The notes under the pieces were generated by a model. It was not told where the DNA came from. It did not search any database and saw nothing but the letters and a program-made list of their open reading frames with translations. Below are positions 18,178 to 29,689 of a stretch of DNA of 39,832 bases, one piece after another; position 1 is the stretch's first letter, and every line of letters begins with the position of its first letter. A program made the translations under genes and the position numbers. The stretch is taken from IMG/VR virus record IMGVR_UViG_3300032116_000516, positions 1-39,832 of that record. One strand, 5' to 3'. Source of the DNA: a virus.

Positions 18178-19770
18178 TCATGCCTTTGACCACGTTCTTT
18201 CCGGTCCTACGTCTATATGAATAAAGTTTCCTGACCCAGAGCCGTATCTTCCTATTCCTCTAAATCCGTGTATTCTCGCCAATCTTATAAACTCTTCTTT
18301 AGTTTCGTCGTTTATGCCAGACCAAGATATATCTAAAGCCTTTCCTTGCATATGCAAAGAGTTCTTAGCGGCGCCTTTCAGCTTAGCATTATATTCAGGT
18401 GATCTATATCCACTATTTACAAACAGAGATCTGCCAAAGTCTTTCTGCACTTTCATTAACATTGCTCTTACTCCAATGTCAACTTTTTCCCAACCATCTC
18501 TTCCTAAAGCAGCAACCCACCTACCGTTAAACGTTACTCTAGAGTCACCCTTACCTTCGTTCCAAGGAGTTACTGCTTGAAAATCTTCCGGGCCCATTGG
18601 CGGAATATCTCCAGCGGCTGTATAAATTTCTCTACTTGTATTTATTCCACTACCCTTAGCTGGCAAGTCGTAACGAATCGCTCCGGCCGTTACCGATCTC
18701 GTAGTGTTAGGCGCGGAATTTGATCTAAGAATTCTAACCGTATCTTTGTAAGAGTTTATAAATGTATCTAGAGGATTCTTAATTGCATTGATACCGTTCT
18801 CTATCTGAGAAACGAATTGACAAAATCTGTATATGAGAAACTGAATGTCTTCGAGTGTAGGGTTTTTAAATATACTCGCCGCGTAGTCTATGATGGCTTC
18901 TATCTTAGCTTTAAAGTTCTTAAGGTTTTCTGGGTCAAAGAACTTCAACGCAGCTTCCTTTATCTTTTGAAACTGCCCTCCTATCTTTTCAACTAAGAAC
19001 GTTTTAATATCAGAGATAATGTTTTCAAGTGAAAAGTTTTCAATTATGCTCTTTACTTTATCAATCACTTTGTCCAAAACTTTAGTTATACCATTCTTAA
19101 GCTGATCAATAAGAGACGATAATGAAAAATTAAGAGCAAAGTTCTTTAGTTTATTTACTAGGTTTGCTATGTCTTGAAGCGCGGTGAAGAAAGCGCCGAT
19201 GGCACCAAAGATGCCTGGAACTAGAGAACAGAAACTGCCGAGTGTACTCTGTGTAAAGTTTTTAGTATAGAATGCTTCAAATTCATTTATTAGTTTTATT
19301 GATATAATTGAAGACGTTGTCGATAGTGTAATTGGAGTATAACCAAAGTTTCTTATGAACTCTGCTATTTCAACTGGAGTAAAGATGATGCCGGTGTTAA
19401 TTCTGTCCGTTAATAGAGGATGTATTGCAGGATCAATTAAACCCTTTACATCCGGCCCATTTCTTGGCGGGTCTTGTATGTCAAATATTCCAGAGCCTTT
19501 TACATCGTCTCTTACGAAAAACTGGTTGACAGCAGAAACAGAAGAGTAAAATGGTTCGGCGCCGTAGTTACGAATAACTTCCGTGATTGGATCCGTATCC
19601 TCGGCAGAAAAAATAACTCCGGACTGAAATGTGTTGATAAGAGACGAAACACTGTTTGAAGTGAATTCACCAATATCAATTGCTTCAGGAATCTCAAGCT
19701 CTATAATTTCGCCGGTAGATCCAACTCTAGTTACACAATTTCTTTTACCGCATAGACCACTTGTGGCCAT
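18178..19770 (-). CDS. Tail protein with C-terminal M15 peptidase (virion-associated murein hydrolase)
   Basis: The protein has 530 residues. The first ~350 are structural: an N-terminal beta-rich region, then long amphipathic helices (about 205-310, rich in K, I, L and F) that may form a coiled coil. The last ~140 are a zinc DD-peptidase domain. SLHMQGKALD at 471-480 gives His473 and Asp480, and FIHID at 516-520 gives His518, matching the M15 SxHxxGxAxD...HxD zinc site; SGYRSPEYN precedes it. Such domains cut peptide cross-links in peptidoglycan. Placement between gp5 and gp25 suggests it is carried by the hub or wedge and acts during DNA entry, alongside the gp5 lysozyme. It could instead have been recruited as an endolysin, but the structural N-terminus argues against that. 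Confidence 0.85.
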   Translation of the reverse strand: MATSGLCGKRNCVTRVGSTGEIIELEIPEAIDIGEFTSNSVSSLINTFQSGVIFSAEDTDPITEVIRNYGAEPFYSSVSAVNQFFVRDDVKGSGIFDIQDPPRNGPDVKGLIDPAIHPLLTDRINTGIIFTPVEIAEFIRNFGYTPITLSTTSSIISIKLINEFEAFYTKNFTQSTLGSFCSLVPGIFGAIGAFFTALQDIANLVNKLKNFALNFSLSSLIDQLKNGITKVLDKVIDKVKSIIENFSLENIISDIKTFLVEKIGGQFQKIKEAALKFFDPENLKNFKAKIEAIIDYAASIFKNPTLEDIQFLIYRFCQFVSQIENGINAIKNPLDTFINSYKDTVRILRSNSAPNTTRSVTAGAIRYDLPAKGSGINTSREIYTAAGDIPPMGPEDFQAVTPWNEGKGDSRVTFNGRWVAALGRDGWEKVDIGVRAMLMKVQKDFGRSLFVNSGYRSPEYNAKLKGAAKNSLHMQGKALDISWSGINDETKEEFIRLARIHGFRGIGRYGSGSGNFIHIDVGPERTWSKA

Positions 19771-25020: not shown

Positions 25021-25638
25021 ATGGTAGCAAAGGTTTTTGACGATCTTCTCCTAAAGGGAATTCGTTCTGGGCAGGTGCCAGCGAGAACAAAGGCCGCGCG
25101 TGATTGGTACCGAGACCAAGCAAACGGTATTGCGAAATCTGAGTTTAAAGACAAGGAACTCAAGTTCATACGTGAAATGGGAACTGATCGTTATGAGAAT
25201 AGATTTCGTATCGGCCATATGTATATGTTTGTGTACGATCCAAAACATAAAGATACGCTTCCTTACTATGATAGGTTTCCTCTTATATTCCCGATAAATA
25301 GAGCAAAGGGTGGCTTTCTTGGTATTAACTTTCACTACTTGCCACTCACACAAAGAGCAAAATTAATGGATGCTTTATATAATGTTGCATCGAATGATAA
25401 GTTTGATGAAACTACTAAATTAAGGGCGTCATATAGTCTATTGAACGGTGCATCTCAATACAAGGAATTTAGACCAACCGTGAAACACTATCTAGCATCA
25501 CAAGTAAGGACTAGGCTTGTGTACATAAATCCATCAGAGTGGGACGTAGCACTTTTCTTGCCAACAGAAAACTTCGTTGGCGCAAGTAAGAGTAAAGTCT
25601 GGGAAGACTCAAGAAAGATCATAAGAGGCGGGCGATAA
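25021..25638 (+). CDS. Conserved T4-like protein of unknown role (gp2 possible by position)
   Basis: The protein has 205 residues. The N-terminal helix is basic (RTKAARDWYRDQANGIAKSEFK). Next comes a strongly patterned core, RFRIGHMYMFVYDPKHKDTLPYYDRFPLIFPI and GGFLGINFHYLPLTQRAKLMDALY, and a C-terminal half with VRTRLVYINPSEWDVALFLPTENFVG. The core looks like a conserved phage family. I do not recognise a catalytic motif. In T4, gene 4 lies beside gene 2 (DNA end protector), so gp2 is one possibility, but I see no decisive residue match. The ATG is 1 base after the gp4 stop, and its own stop overlaps the next ATG (TAATG). Confidence 0.6.
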   Translation: MVAKVFDDLLLKGIRSGQVPARTKAARDWYRDQANGIAKSEFKDKELKFIREMGTDRYENRFRIGHMYMFVYDPKHKDTLPYYDRFPLIFPINRAKGGFLGINFHYLPLTQRAKLMDALYNVASNDKFDETTKLRASYSLLNGASQYKEFRPTVKHYLASQVRTRLVYINPSEWDVALFLPTENFVGASKSKVWEDSRKIIRGGR

Positions 25639-26435
25639 TGCCATTTAACATAAACGAATTTAAAGGCACAATGAATAAGTACGGCGGCGCTGCCCGTAAG
25701 AACTTATTTGTGGTTGAAATCGCGAATGCCCCAGTTATACGAGGTATAGCTTTACGTGATCTAACGTTCTTTTGTCAGGCGGTTCAAGCGCCCGGCATAA
25801 ACGTTAGCGTTACAGATAATTATCCAAACGGCTTTGGCATTAGACAGTCCATTCCGGTTCAAATGGTTCCTACGCCAGTAAACGCAATTTTTATGCTAGA
25901 TTCAGATCATCAGGTTATTAGTTTCTTTCATCAGTGGATGCAAAGCGTAGTTAACTTTGATACGACTAGGGGCGGATACTTATCAGTTAACGATCAGTTA
26001 CCATACGAACTTGGGTATATAAGAGATATATCGACCAGAATAACAATTAAGAACTATAGTACTGATTCTCAAGATATTTACTATGAATACGTTTTAGAAG
26101 ACGCGTTTCCTACTGAAGTATCTGGAGAAACTCTTTCTTGGTCTGACAACGACAGTTACGCAACTGCTACTGTGAATTTTGCATACTCAAGAGTTAGCGT
26201 ATCAGGATTCAAAAAAGGAACATACACGCAGAGAGACACGAGAGGGACTGGATACCTTGAGTTAATAAACAGAATTGGAACGTCTGGTCAGTTAATCAAC
26301 CAAGGAAGACTACCAACATCAATTCAGGATGCAGTTAACGCTCTCACAAGATTTAATACGGGATTGAATAACTTTAACAATGGGTTCTCTCAAATAAAAA
26401 CTGGTTTGAACACAATTGGGAATATTTTTAAATAA
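25638..26435 (+). CDS. Tail-tube-family protein (gp54/gp19-like)
   Basis: The protein has 265 residues. Residues 1-195 have the tail-tube fold pattern: FKGTMNKYGGAARKNLFVVEI, LTFFCQAVQAPGINV, a central HQWMQSVVN helix, YEYVLEDAFPTEVSGETLSWSD and ATATVNFAYSRVSV. The last ~65 residues add an Asn/Gly-rich helical tail (FNTGLNNFNNGFSQIKTGLN). A main tube protein (gp19) is usually near 160-200 residues and lies in the head-tail module, so a tube initiator (gp54) is more likely here, close to gp26 and the tape-measure gene. This call is from fold pattern and context. It is coupled to the upstream gene. Confidence 0.7.
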   Translation: MPFNINEFKGTMNKYGGAARKNLFVVEIANAPVIRGIALRDLTFFCQAVQAPGINVSVTDNYPNGFGIRQSIPVQMVPTPVNAIFMLDSDHQVISFFHQWMQSVVNFDTTRGGYLSVNDQLPYELGYIRDISTRITIKNYSTDSQDIYYEYVLEDAFPTEVSGETLSWSDNDSYATATVNFAYSRVSVSGFKKGTYTQRDTRGTGYLELINRIGTSGQLINQGRLPTSIQDAVNALTRFNTGLNNFNNGFSQIKTGLNTIGNIFK

Positions 26436-26450
26436 TAAGGAGACTATAGA

Positions 26451-27152
26451 ATGGCACTACCTAAGATTGATCTACCGATATATGAGTTGAGACTTCCTTC
26501 TAATGACAAGATAGTTAAGTTTAGACCATTTACGGTAAAAGAAGAAAAGATACTGTTAACTGCCCAAGAAGCAAAAGATAGTACACAAATGATGAATGCG
26601 GTAAATCAGATCGTGAATAATTGCCTTATTGATTTTGATGCAGAAGATCTTGCAGTTTTTGACTTAGAATATATTCTCATTAACCTTAGATCAAAGTCCG
26701 TAGATAACGAAATAAAATTTGAGATAGAAGATCCTGATACGAAAGAAAAGATTAAGCTTTCGATGGAAATTTCAAATGTTAAAGTGATTAAAGATGAAAG
26801 ACACGTTAATAGAATTAAGATAGATGATACATATACATTATTTTTAAAGTATCCTTCTATAAGCATGTTTAAAGGTATGTTAAATGAAGAAGAGATAACC
26901 ACAAACTCTTCATTTGAGATTCTAATTTCTTGCATGGATAAGCTCGCGTCTGAGGACACGGTGTATAACTTTAAAGACTTTTCAAAGAAAGAAGTTGATG
27001 ATTTCGTTGAGAGCCTTCACAGTGACGTAGTGAAACAGATGAAAGAATTCTTTGACACTATTCCAAAGGTTCGTCATGAAATACCATACGTAAATTCCAA
27101 CGGTGACAAAAAGACATTTGTTGTAGAAGGAATTCAATCTTTTTTTATCTGA
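26451..27152 (+). CDS. 26: Baseplate hub assembly protein gp26
   Basis: The protein has 233 residues (T4 gp26 is 208). It matches the T4 baseplate (PF12322) pattern: PIYELRLPSNDKIVKFRPFTVKEEKILLTAQE, NQIVNNCL, DLEYILINLRSKSVDNEIKF and DDFVESLHSDVVKQMKEFFDTIPKVRHE. In T4, gp26 is an assembly factor for the central hub and is followed by gene 51. AAGGAG lies 8-9 bases before the ATG. The last codons before the stop form a T7 run (27140-27146), and a second small frame begins at the stop, discussed separately. By size and place it could be the counterpart of lambda gpG-type tail chaperones. Confidence 0.88.
   Translation: MALPKIDLPIYELRLPSNDKIVKFRPFTVKEEKILLTAQEAKDSTQMMNAVNQIVNNCLIDFDAEDLAVFDLEYILINLRSKSVDNEIKFEIEDPDTKEKIKLSMEISNVKVIKDERHVNRIKIDDTYTLFLKYPSISMFKGMLNEEEITTNSSFEILISCMDKLASEDTVYNFKDFSKKEVDDFVESLHSDVVKQMKEFFDTIPKVRHEIPYVNSNGDKKTFVVEGIQSFFI
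27140..27146 (+). promoter_or_regulatory. Candidate -1 ribosomal frameshift site (T TTT TTT)
   Basis: The heptamer is aligned with the gp26 frame as X XXY YYZ: TCT TTT TTT ATC TGA. A -1 slip would continue TAT CTG ATG into the downstream 55-residue ORF without meeting a stop. No clear downstream pseudoknot was found by eye. Confidence 0.6.
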
Positions 27153-27319
27153 TGTTGAGTCATACAAATCTCTATATGTATTACCAAAAAATATTCGGAA
27201 TGGCTCAACACCACAAGTATTCAATAACAGAAATTGAAAATATGATGCCTTATGAAAGAGATCTTTATTTCGACTTGCTGGTCGAATTTGTTAAGAAACA
27301 AGAGGAAAGCAGGAACTAA
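27152..27319 (+). CDS. 55-residue ORF in -1 frame after gp26 (gp51 position; possible gp26 extension)
   Basis: This ORF encodes MLSHTNLYMYYQKIFGMAQHHKYSITEIENMMPYERD..., 55 residues, rich in helix formers, ending three bases before the tape-measure-like ATG. Its ATG overlaps the gp26 stop (TGATG at 27150-27154). There is no Shine-Dalgarno at proper distance; the nearest purine run (agaagg) ends more than 20 bases upstream. It could be made by stop-start coupling or as a C-terminal extension of gp26 through the slippery site. The ENMMPYERDLY segment resembles the small T-type extensions of tail assembly chaperones that precede tape-measure genes in other phages. T4 has gene 51 here, but I cannot show homology. 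Confidence 0.65.
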   Translation: MLSHTNLYMYYQKIFGMAQHHKYSITEIENMMPYERDLYFDLLVEFVKKQEESRN

Positions 27320-27321
27320 AA

Positions 27322-29208
27322 ATGGCGGACGTAAACGACCTAGCTCAATTAATGGAATCTGTAGATAACCATGTTAAAGAACAGACTGGGATATTAGAAT
27401 CTATTTTGAAGCCTAGCGCTAGCAGATCTGCGTCATCTGAGGCTGGAATTTTTAAATCTATTATGGTATCTGTATATGATCAAATTGAAGCACAGACTAA
27501 GATATTGTCGTCTACGTATGATCAAATAAAACAACAGACCGGAATATTGGAAACAATGTTAAATCTGCAAGTAAGCGAAGCTGAAAAAGCAGAACAGAGA
27601 GACAAACTTGCCGCTGCTGATAGAAGTAGTAGAGAAAACCAAACTCCAGAACAGCCGACCCCCACCCCACCACCCGCCCCGCAGCCTCAATCTGATAACA
27701 CTCTTGCTGGCTTGTTAGGTGGATTGGCTGCACTCTTTGGTAAAAATATTCTAGGTAAATTTGCAGCACTTGCGGTCGGGGCTGCGGCTCTTGCTCTAAG
27801 TGTTGGGGCAACGATCGGTCTAATCAAAGGGCAACTAACAGCAATAAAAACTTACTTTAAAGCATTCGCCCCGGGTTTAGTAAAGATATTCGACGATTTT
27901 AAAGTAAGCTTATCTTCTAGAATATCTTCGATAGCGGCTGGGTTTAAGTCAATAGTTGACGACTTTAAGGTTAGGGCCGGGGTTGTAAGAGTTGCAGTAG
28001 ATGACGCGTTTAATAATTTCATTAAGAGTATAAAGGGTTTGTTTCCTGCCGGTTCGGCCGGTGGTTCTGGTTCAAAATTTGCAGCTTTAATATCATCCGT
28101 TGGAAAGACAATAGATATTCTTATTGAACCGTTTAGAACCGCTCTCACTACTTTAAAGGAATTGGCCGGTCCTCGTGGTGGGCCTGGAAAAATAGCTGGT
28201 ATTTTTAAGTCAATAACAGGATGGTTTGGATCTCTAGGATCGCAGATTGGAAAGATAGCTGGCGTTGTGGGAAAGATATTTGCCCCGATCGCAATCATTA
28301 TGACAGCGTTTGAAACGATTAAGGGTGCAATAGATGGTTACGCAGAAGGTGGTATACTCGGTGCCTTTGAGGGTGCGCTTTCTGGGTTCTTCACGTCGCT
28401 AATTGCAGCCCCGTTGGATCTGTTAAAGAACGTCGTTTCGTGGGTTGCTGGAGCTCTAGGATTTGAAAAAGCAGCGGAAGTTCTAGATTCGTTTAGCTTT
28501 ACTGATATATTTAAGCAGGTTATAGGATCTATATTTGATGGAGTTTCGTCTGCATTGAGCGTAGTCACGGATCTTTTCACGTTCACAGAAGAAGACATGA
28601 CTCTCTTTGGTGCCCTCGGTAAGTTGCAGGACTTCGTATTTGCACCAGTGAATATGGCAATAAACTTCGTTAAAGGACTATTCGGGTTTGACGAGTCGGA
28701 AGGCCCGCCGTTTAAGTTACAAGATTGGATAATGGAAAAGGTATACTCTATAATCGATTGGCTTGGAAGTTTATTTTCATGGGATGAAGATGAAACTTCT
28801 AGAGAACTCACTCCTAGAGAGTTAAATGCTAGAAGAAGCGGAAGAAATGTTGTTACTCCAGAATTCCAAGAAGATTTTGGATCTGGGCCACAGATGAGAA
28901 CTGGGACGAGAGGGTTTGTTAACTTTGGTGAAGGAACTCGTGCAACTCTACACGGCCTAGAAGCTGTCGTTCCAAGAAATACCGATGCTGGACAAATCTT
29001 AGCAAATAACTTTGATGATAGTTGGGGACTAAAACTTTCAGCTATTGAAACTCAAGCGGCTGCTACAAAACCAATCATTATCAATGCACCAAATAACAGT
29101 CAGACAAATGTTAATTCCAGAGGCGGCACCGCTTCTACTATAATAAACTCGTTTGGTGCGAGTAGATCTGACCTAGACGCTCTTTCAAGACCGGCTGGCG
29201 CAAATTAA
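27322..29208 (+). CDS. 29: Tape-measure-like baseplate hub protein (gp29-like)
   Basis: The protein has 628 residues (T4 gp29 is 590). The N-terminal 80 residues hold three repeats of the EQTGILE / AQTKILS / QQTGILE type, probably a coiled coil. A proline-rich linker follows (109-122, PEQPTPTPPPAP). Hydrophobic segments lie at about 127-170 and 340-385, typical of tape-measure proteins that later insert into or cross the membrane. The C-terminal part has GTRGFVNFGEGTRATLHGLEAVVP, a signature at the end of many myovirus tape measures and gp29 relatives. It should set tail length and sit inside the tube. An AGGA ribosome site lies 8 bases upstream. A strong terminator follows the stop. Confidence 0.82.
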   Translation: MADVNDLAQLMESVDNHVKEQTGILESILKPSASRSASSEAGIFKSIMVSVYDQIEAQTKILSSTYDQIKQQTGILETMLNLQVSEAEKAEQRDKLAAADRSSRENQTPEQPTPTPPPAPQPQSDNTLAGLLGGLAALFGKNILGKFAALAVGAAALALSVGATIGLIKGQLTAIKTYFKAFAPGLVKIFDDFKVSLSSRISSIAAGFKSIVDDFKVRAGVVRVAVDDAFNNFIKSIKGLFPAGSAGGSGSKFAALISSVGKTIDILIEPFRTALTTLKELAGPRGGPGKIAGIFKSITGWFGSLGSQIGKIAGVVGKIFAPIAIIMTAFETIKGAIDGYAEGGILGAFEGALSGFFTSLIAAPLDLLKNVVSWVAGALGFEKAAEVLDSFSFTDIFKQVIGSIFDGVSSALSVVTDLFTFTEEDMTLFGALGKLQDFVFAPVNMAINFVKGLFGFDESEGPPFKLQDWIMEKVYSIIDWLGSLFSWDEDETSRELTPRELNARRSGRNVVTPEFQEDFGSGPQMRTGTRGFVNFGEGTRATLHGLEAVVPRNTDAGQILANNFDDSWGLKLSAIETQAAATKPIIINAPNNSQTNVNSRGGTASTIINSFGASRSDLDALSRPAGAN

Positions 29209-29236: not shown

Positions 29237-29689
29237 TCACTCTAGAAGAAGTTCTTTACTCTTTACAATTTGTATTTTCTTTGGTTTCTTTTCTTCAGGA
29301 ACCACATTGAGCAATTCAATCGTTAGCATACCTTTTTCTAGAGATACACCCTTTACCTCGATCGTATCGGCGAGAGTAAACTTACGAGTAAAGCTTCTTG
29401 CTGCAATTCCCTTATGTAGATAAGTTGTATTAGTACTGCCGGTGTCGACTACGTTTGCGCTAATCGTAAGGACTCCGTCGTGAACTTCGATATCAAAGTC
29501 CTCTTCTTTAAATCCTGCTACAGCTAGTTCAATAACGTAGGTGTCTTCACCAGTCTTAATTAGATTGTATGGTGGATAGTTTGATGCGTTGGATCTATTG
29601 ATTGTATCTATCTTATTTAAGATTGAGTCGAATCCAATAAAGAATGGATCGCTAAGTAGATCGTTTGTACTAAACTTACGTGTGTTCAT
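29237..29689 (-). CDS. hsp20: Small heat-shock protein Hsp20 (alpha-crystallin family)
   Basis: The protein has 150 residues with an alpha-crystallin domain at about 38-135: YPPYNLIKTGEDTYVIELAVAGFKEEDFDIEVHDGVLTISA, then SFTRKFTLADTIEVKGVSLEKGMLTIEL, which holds the GxL-type motif. The C-terminal KKPKKIQIVK stretch can supply an IxI/V anchor (IQIV). Small heat-shock proteins hold unfolding proteins; phage copies are common in cyanophage-type T4 relatives and may protect virion proteins during assembly. AAAGGAG lies ahead of the ATG. The gene has its own late promoter box about 90 bases upstream and a terminator at the end, so it is likely a single-gene late unit. Confidence 0.95.
   Translation of the reverse strand: MNTRKFSTNDLLSDPFFIGFDSILNKIDTINRSNASNYPPYNLIKTGEDTYVIELAVAGFKEEDFDIEVHDGVLTISANVVDTGSTNTTYLHKGIAARSFTRKFTLADTIEVKGVSLEKGMLTIELLNVVPEEKKPKKIQIVKSKELLLE

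Follow-up and report, generated by a model that had tools for sequence, protein, structure and literature searches.

A probable programmed −1 frameshift, with a covarying downstream RNA stem, joins gp26 to gp51 in T4-like phages

The window analyzed here is the whole 39,832-nt stretch of a viral record (IMG/VR IMGVR_UViG_3300032116_000516, positions 1 to 39,832). On its plus strand, a gp26 gene is followed by a small open reading frame (ORF) and by a tape-measure-like gene, and the genes and elements of this locus are as follows.

25638..26435 (+): tail-tube-family gene directly upstream of gp26 (phrog_45 tail tube, 1.9e-36; PF23849, 3.3e-09)
26451..27152 (+): gp26, the putative short form, a G-like tail assembly chaperone (PF12322 T4_baseplate, 1.1e-55; phrog_150, 3.5e-61)
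27126..27131 (+): GAAGGA, Shine-Dalgarno-like element and candidate stimulator, separated from the downstream heptamer by 8 nt
27140..27146 (+): slippery heptamer T TTT TTT, read in phase with gp26 (sequence and conservation)
27146..27319 (+): predicted −1 frame extension, a T-like domain of 57 residues after the slip, YLMLSHTNLYMYYQ...EESRN (phrog_634, 1.6e-20)
27153..27163 (+): 5′ arm TGTTGAGTCAT of the putative stimulatory stem, behind a 6-nt spacer after the heptamer (covariation and folding z)
27200..27210 (+): 3′ arm ATGGCTCAACA of the same stem, with a 36-nt loop between the arms
27322..29208 (+): tape-measure-like gene of 628 aa, directly downstream of the small ORF (matches part of the phrog_167 tail length tape measure profile, 7e-08)

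The profile matches of the neighboring genes therefore give the order tube protein, G, T and tape measure, which supports the G/GT-like layout ahead of the tape measure gene proposed in a first-pass annotation of this sequence. In the window sequence, gp26 is 233 aa long and ends on TGA (27150-27152), its 3′ end reading ...GAA GGA ATT CAA TCT TTT TTT ATC TGA TG.... The first T of the heptamer is the third base of the TCT codon, and the heptamer is followed by ATC and then by the stop. The 55-aa small ORF (27152-27319, plus strand), whose family, phrog_634, is the short "gp51" of marine T4-like phages, corresponds to the ATG-initiated part of the −1 extension. It lies in −1 relative to gp26, is open back through the slip point, and its ATG shares bases with the gp26 stop (TGATG). 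No Shine-Dalgarno (SD) motif is found within 5-16 nt upstream of this ATG, and the sole purine-rich element nearby, GAAGGA, ends 20 nt before it. Slippage would join 232 residues of gp26 to 57 residues of the −1 frame, i.e., a predicted fusion of 289 aa and, by rough estimate, ~33 kDa. Thus, we recover what the first-pass annotation had read from the letters, namely an in-phase T TTT TTT one codon ahead of the gp26 stop, a 55-residue ORF in the −1 frame open through the slip point and devoid of its own ribosome site, and a fusion of about 33 kDa. On the other side of the tape-measure-like gene, an Hsp20-type small heat-shock gene adjoins it (29237-29689, minus strand; phrog_432, 1.2e-39). Elsewhere in the window, positions 18178-19770 (minus strand) encode a 530-aa protein whose C-terminal domain is peptidase/endolysin-like and whose middle part resembles a tape measure.

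Two scans of IMG/VR yielded 160 related viral loci, 158 of them with both parts, in 74 clusters at 95% gp26 identity. Every one of these 158 has its small ORF in −1 relative to gp26. Among the 74 cluster representatives, the slip site reads T TTT TTT in 67, T TTT TTC in six and G TTT TTT in one; the latter (locus L076:3190), in which the stem is intact, is either a variant site or a sequencing error. T TTT TTY stands at the junction in 73/74 representatives versus 18 of the 369 other Phe-Phe pairs of the same loci; the string is therefore rare elsewhere and kept here, and a chance origin of the heptamer is ruled out by these counts. A sequencing indel in the homopolymer was also rejected, because the 158 assembled loci and many isolates have the same phase. 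A further scan, using the gp26 of P-SSM2 as query, provided 39 additional clusters (P-SSM2-type), all with T TTT TTC. A like site and phase were found in the isolates ACG-2014d, P-SSM2, P-SSM4, S-PM2, Sf-FR1, Melnitz-2, phiM12, Astolliot and Milchi, as well as in OLIVR6, IC12, phi-Grn1, D479, phiAS5, S13, Aeh1, SRB7757 and Bhz51.

On the contrary, the heptamer is gone, with both frames and the −1 phase kept, in Ackermannviridae (phiEa2809, PhiSH19, Vibrio YC), Cygsa01 and Vibrio K475, where it is replaced by ATT TTC, CTT TTT or GCT TTC (e.g., ATT TTC ATT TAA); the T domain of PhiSH19 has no early start codon whatever. The first-pass annotation had named the conservation of heptamer and phase as its check, and the loss of the heptamer from genomes that keep both ORFs as a finding against it. 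Conservation holds in the window's group, Kyanoviridae, phiM12, Otagovirus, OLIVR6-type phages, the vibriophages phi-Grn1 and D479, Aeh1, phiAS5 and S13, whereas the contrary finding is what Ackermannviridae, Cygsa01 and Vibrio K475 display; the proposal is thus supported, with part of the contrary evidence that it named appearing outside the near relatives. The phages without the heptamer may use another slip signal, or coupling where an ATG sits at the stop; a different slip signal seems likely in them.

The heptamer is followed, 6 nt downstream, by a stem pairing 27153-27163 with 27200-27210, a feature that the first-pass annotation had not noted. The window RNA folds at −15.9 kcal/mol over 80 nt (z −2.85) and, across the loci, the 60 nt starting 5 nt past the heptamer have a mean folding z of −3.7, with 69/74 loci below −2. 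In a control on half of the loci, 15 neighboring segments gave mean z values of −0.8 to +0.4, with 0-4 of ~37 loci below −2, versus 34/37 at the stem position. RNAalifold recovers the inner eight stem pairs unprompted, and 89.7% of the stem cells are paired across the alignment. Double-change cells in the stem number 49 against 21.6 ± 3.4 in shuffles (0/500), and the covariation score of the stem is 0.232, as compared with 0.134 in shuffled alignments (0/500) and with at most 0.095 when the stem is slid along the alignment. A third measure, the number of pairs in which both partners have changed (3), is in no excess over shuffles (195/500). The compensatory changes are illustrated by pair 16-69 (CG in 37, UA in 23) and by pair 19-66 (AU in 39, UA in 13, UG in 11); the main covarying pairs coincide in part with degenerate positions of small-ORF codons (TTG/CTG with CAA/CAG; AGT/TGT with GCT/GCA/GCG). 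Since kinship alone can beat shuffles without any structure, the case rests most firmly on the slide control, on where the stem lies and on the different solutions adopted elsewhere. An RNA model (R1) also picks up the junction in phiM12, P-SSM2, S-PM2 and other relatives, and we excluded these matches as structural evidence because much of their score is protein-coding sequence. The junction thus combines an X XXY YYZ heptamer, a short spacer and a 3′ structure with covariation, i.e., the components of a programmed −1 signal.

Frameshifting could be real and the covarying stem nevertheless be a separate RNA element lying beside the slip site, acting for instance in mRNA stability or in the control of the downstream gene. 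Its extent, covering most of the small-ORF start region, would suit such an element, and Rfam holds no family for it, the only match being a sub-threshold plant miRNA on the other strand. However, the structure is restricted to that position, and a stem stands close behind the heptamer even in lineages where the stem itself differs. Indeed, phiM12 retains the long-loop stem of the window's group with an altered sequence, whereas the same place is occupied by a local 11-bp hairpin in the P-SSM2-type phages and by long local hairpins behind the slip site in S-PM2 and Sf-FR1. We therefore regard a separate element as improbable and a stimulator of frameshifting as the better account of the stem.

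A second candidate stimulator lies upstream. AGGA at 8 nt, AAGG at 9 nt or GAGG/GGAGG at 10 nt before the slip site occurs in 59/74 loci. The Gly codon at this place, always four codons ahead of the first TTT, is GGA in 43/67 cases versus 86/306 in the rest of gp26. Such a bias agrees with an SD-like stimulator, as in dnaX, and is only suggestive, because the amino acids at that place are conserved too.

The start codons of the small ORF bear on how it is expressed. Ribosomes ending at TGA could start again on the overlapping ATG, which would yield gp51 as a free 55-aa protein and no fusion at all; the window and 39/74 representatives do have an ATG at the stop overlap, and databases annotate gp51 as a separate gene. 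Yet the other 35 representatives are devoid of this ATG, seven of the 74 have no ATG, GTG or TTG ahead of the conserved core of the small ORF, and only one carries an SD-like motif suitably spaced from any small-ORF start, in line with the missing ribosome site noted for the window. No start is found near the junction in the isolates ACG-2014d, Melnitz-2, Astolliot, OLIVR6, S13, phiAS5, Aeh1, D479 and SRB7757. Moreover, coupling would need neither the heptamer, nor a fixed −1 phase, nor the stem, whose 5′ arm the ATG abuts and overlaps, and the homologous T4 protein is a fusion. Judging from these counts, the small ORF does not initiate on its own as a rule; free gp51 from its own start is rejected as the general mode and is a rival for the ATG-bearing members, the window among them. 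As an explanation overall, we hold stop-start coupling to be very unlikely. Finally, transcriptional slippage on the seven-T run of this AT-rich genome, yielding mixed mRNAs that encode the fusion, is hardly credible, since cyanophage, vibriophage and other relatives have six T then C (T TTT TTC), which allows tandem Phe-tRNA slippage and is not favored by polymerase slippage, and the stem with compensatory changes 6 nt downstream suits ribosomal slippage.

Programmed frameshifting would also explain the uneven annotation of gp51. Sullivan et al. (2010, PMC3037559) described the cyanophage "gp51 baseplate hub assembly catalyst", which is the same small ORF, as having ~20% of the length of T4 gp51, of which it matches the C-terminus without the initial ~200 residues, and named Aeh1 as the only phage lacking gp51; no frameshift explanation was offered there. 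On the frameshift reading, cyanophage gp51 is short because gp26 supplies the missing residues, and gp51 appeared to be missing in Aeh1 because the domain sits in the −1 frame. In the genome of Aeromonas phage Aeh1 (NC_005260), an unannotated gp51/T domain follows gp26, in −1 relative to it and preceded by T TTT TTC. The small ORF was overlooked by annotators in ACG-2014d and S13 as well, and in phi-Grn1 and Melnitz-2 its annotated start is an internal codon, so that conserved residues are cut off. Under this scheme many annotated gp51 genes would be mis-modelled, with wrong starts or missing altogether, and a joined gp26-gp51 annotation is therefore warranted.

In T4, genes 26 and 51 are divergent neighbors. 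Both gp26 and gp51 are full-length PF12322 proteins and the end of gp51 also carries phrog_634; by these matches they are paralogs. A profile built from the −1 extensions was run against 11 long gp51 proteins and matched 10 of them at the C-terminus, the remaining one having been read as a truncated 120-residue sequence; it matches none of the gp26 proteins tested. Over the stretch that spans the predicted slip, VFKLLVNPDEIFTFYQ of T4 gp51 and FFYLMLSHTNLYMYYQ of the window fusion align with identical spacing and without gaps. Hence, as judged from the alignment, T4 gp51 has the domain order and spacing of the predicted fusion.

Whole-genome profile searches found, in each complete frameshift-type genome examined, a single full-length N-domain immediately followed by the T-domain. 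In T4, RB43, the RB49-type phage SFHK24, Aeromonas 31 and a Winklervirus they found the N-domain twice, one of the two copies bearing a T tail. The T4 two-gene arrangement is not seen in the window, which contains one PF12322 copy in a 39.8-kb record that is itself a fragment. In the N-domain tree, a single branch sets apart each of the frameshift-type, long-gp51 and separate-gp26 groups (support 99/96, 100/100 and, weakly, 65/72), and frameshift members of the Straboviridae are among those nearest to the attachment of the duplicates. The simplest reading of this tree, which is without an established root, is that an ancestral frameshift was replaced once by duplication. In RB43 (L176:2501-3794), a long gp51 and a gp26-like gene follow each other on one strand and overlap at their ends, where T4 has a divergent pair; this tandem arrangement is possibly closer to the original duplication. 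T4 gp26 also weakly matches phrog_1140 "baseplate hub distal subunit" (gp28; E 9.4e-4), a hint that the T4 hub may include a third protein related to these two.

The AlphaFold model of the window gp26 (mean pLDDT 86), compared with the PDB by VIA, gave 3fgx (Z 7.9), the HK97 tail assembly chaperone 2ob9 (Z 7.4 over 83 residues, rmsd 4.2), YqbN 3klu (Z 6.6) and 5ir0 (Z 5.2), the remainder being at 2.8 or below. The model appears to resemble tail assembly chaperones, all Z values being under 8 and, at that level, not proof on their own. A sequence search of the PDB with the gp26/gp51 alignment returned nothing, and a T4-like gp51 model gave no significant Foldseek match to the PDB and VIA Z values under 4; these searches thus found no solved relative of the whole long protein.

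Comparative support for programmed −1 frameshifting is strong. The site, its phase, their conservation, the covarying stem, the homology of the fusion to T4 gp51 and the paralogy of T4 gp26 and gp51 are shown by the present data; the occurrence of slippage, its efficiency and the binding roles of the two products are inferred. We are highly confident that one gene produces two tail assembly chaperones by −1 slippage at T TTT TTT, helped by the 3′ stem, gp26 and gp26-51 being most probably the G and GT chaperones. For most ribosomes, translation would end at the gp26 TGA, with the short G-like protein as the product. A minority, delayed by the 3′ RNA stem and perhaps also by the upstream SD-like element, would shift back one base at the heptamer, where both Phe-tRNAs can re-pair perfectly, and slippage would add the 57 residues that make the 289-residue GT-like long protein. 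By analogy with lambda, the short form may coat the tape measure protein of the neighboring gene, and the extra domain of the long form may recruit tube or baseplate subunits.

We further think it likely that tail chaperone frameshifting in the T4 superfamily is served by a dedicated, covarying RNA stimulator placed shortly after the slip site, that some lineages swapped in hairpins of another geometry, and that the T-even line dropped the device by duplication (gp26 = G, gp51 = GT). If true, this replacement and loss across lineages would be a natural experiment in which a recoding signal is kept, rebuilt or lost, and the conserved stem offers a direct handle on the frameshift signal. We propose a unified scheme in which T4-like phages too use a short and a long tail chaperone; the data support −1 frameshifting in cyanophages, vibriophages, Aeh1-type and rhizobial T4-like phages, and a pair of paralogs in T4 and closely related phages.

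A 2010 review describes gp51 as essential and of unknown function, and a 2016 review (PMC5009743), summarizing Xu, Hendrix and Duda (2004), gives the G-T frameshift as conserved among long-tailed phages except T4. The first-pass annotation was not aware of frameshifting having been described for gp26/gp51 in T4-like phages, a statement that the citing literature overturns. According to the PRFect paper (PMC10885494), Vladimirov, Gautam and Davidson (2022, Virology 566:9-15) identified the T4-like tail chaperones, some T4-like phages having short and long fused genes, and PMC12846349 credits the same work with polyT frameshift signals in T4-like chaperone genes. Its title argues for a non-frameshift mechanism in T4-like phages, which PMC10885494 applies to those with two genes. 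As these citing papers present it, that work shares with our scheme the two-gene solution and the polyT slip sites; the core idea thus appears to be already in print, which limits the novelty of the present analysis. The elements that appear to be new are the stimulator with its covariation, the replacement of that stimulator in particular lineages and the erosion of the start codons; the literature searched, in which Vladimirov et al. is represented by the papers citing it, yielded no description of the RNA stimulator or of its turnover.

Compared with known systems, the window differs from the T4 hub assembly chaperones gp26 and gp51, made from two divergent genes with no frameshift, in having one gene and a −1 extension. 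It resembles lambda G/GT in its short ORF with an in-phase slip near the 3′ end and a −1 extension, located directly before the tape measure gene and behind a tube-family gene. The lambda slip site is G GGA AAG; the window differs from it by its T TTT TTY slip, its families (PF12322 and phrog_634) and its conserved 3′ stem. The −1 signals of dnaX and IS elements comprise a heptamer, a short spacer, a 3′ stem and a possible upstream SD-like element. The window signal is like them in layout and unlike them in its heptamer, in its gene and, within the window's group, in the 36-nt loop of its stem.
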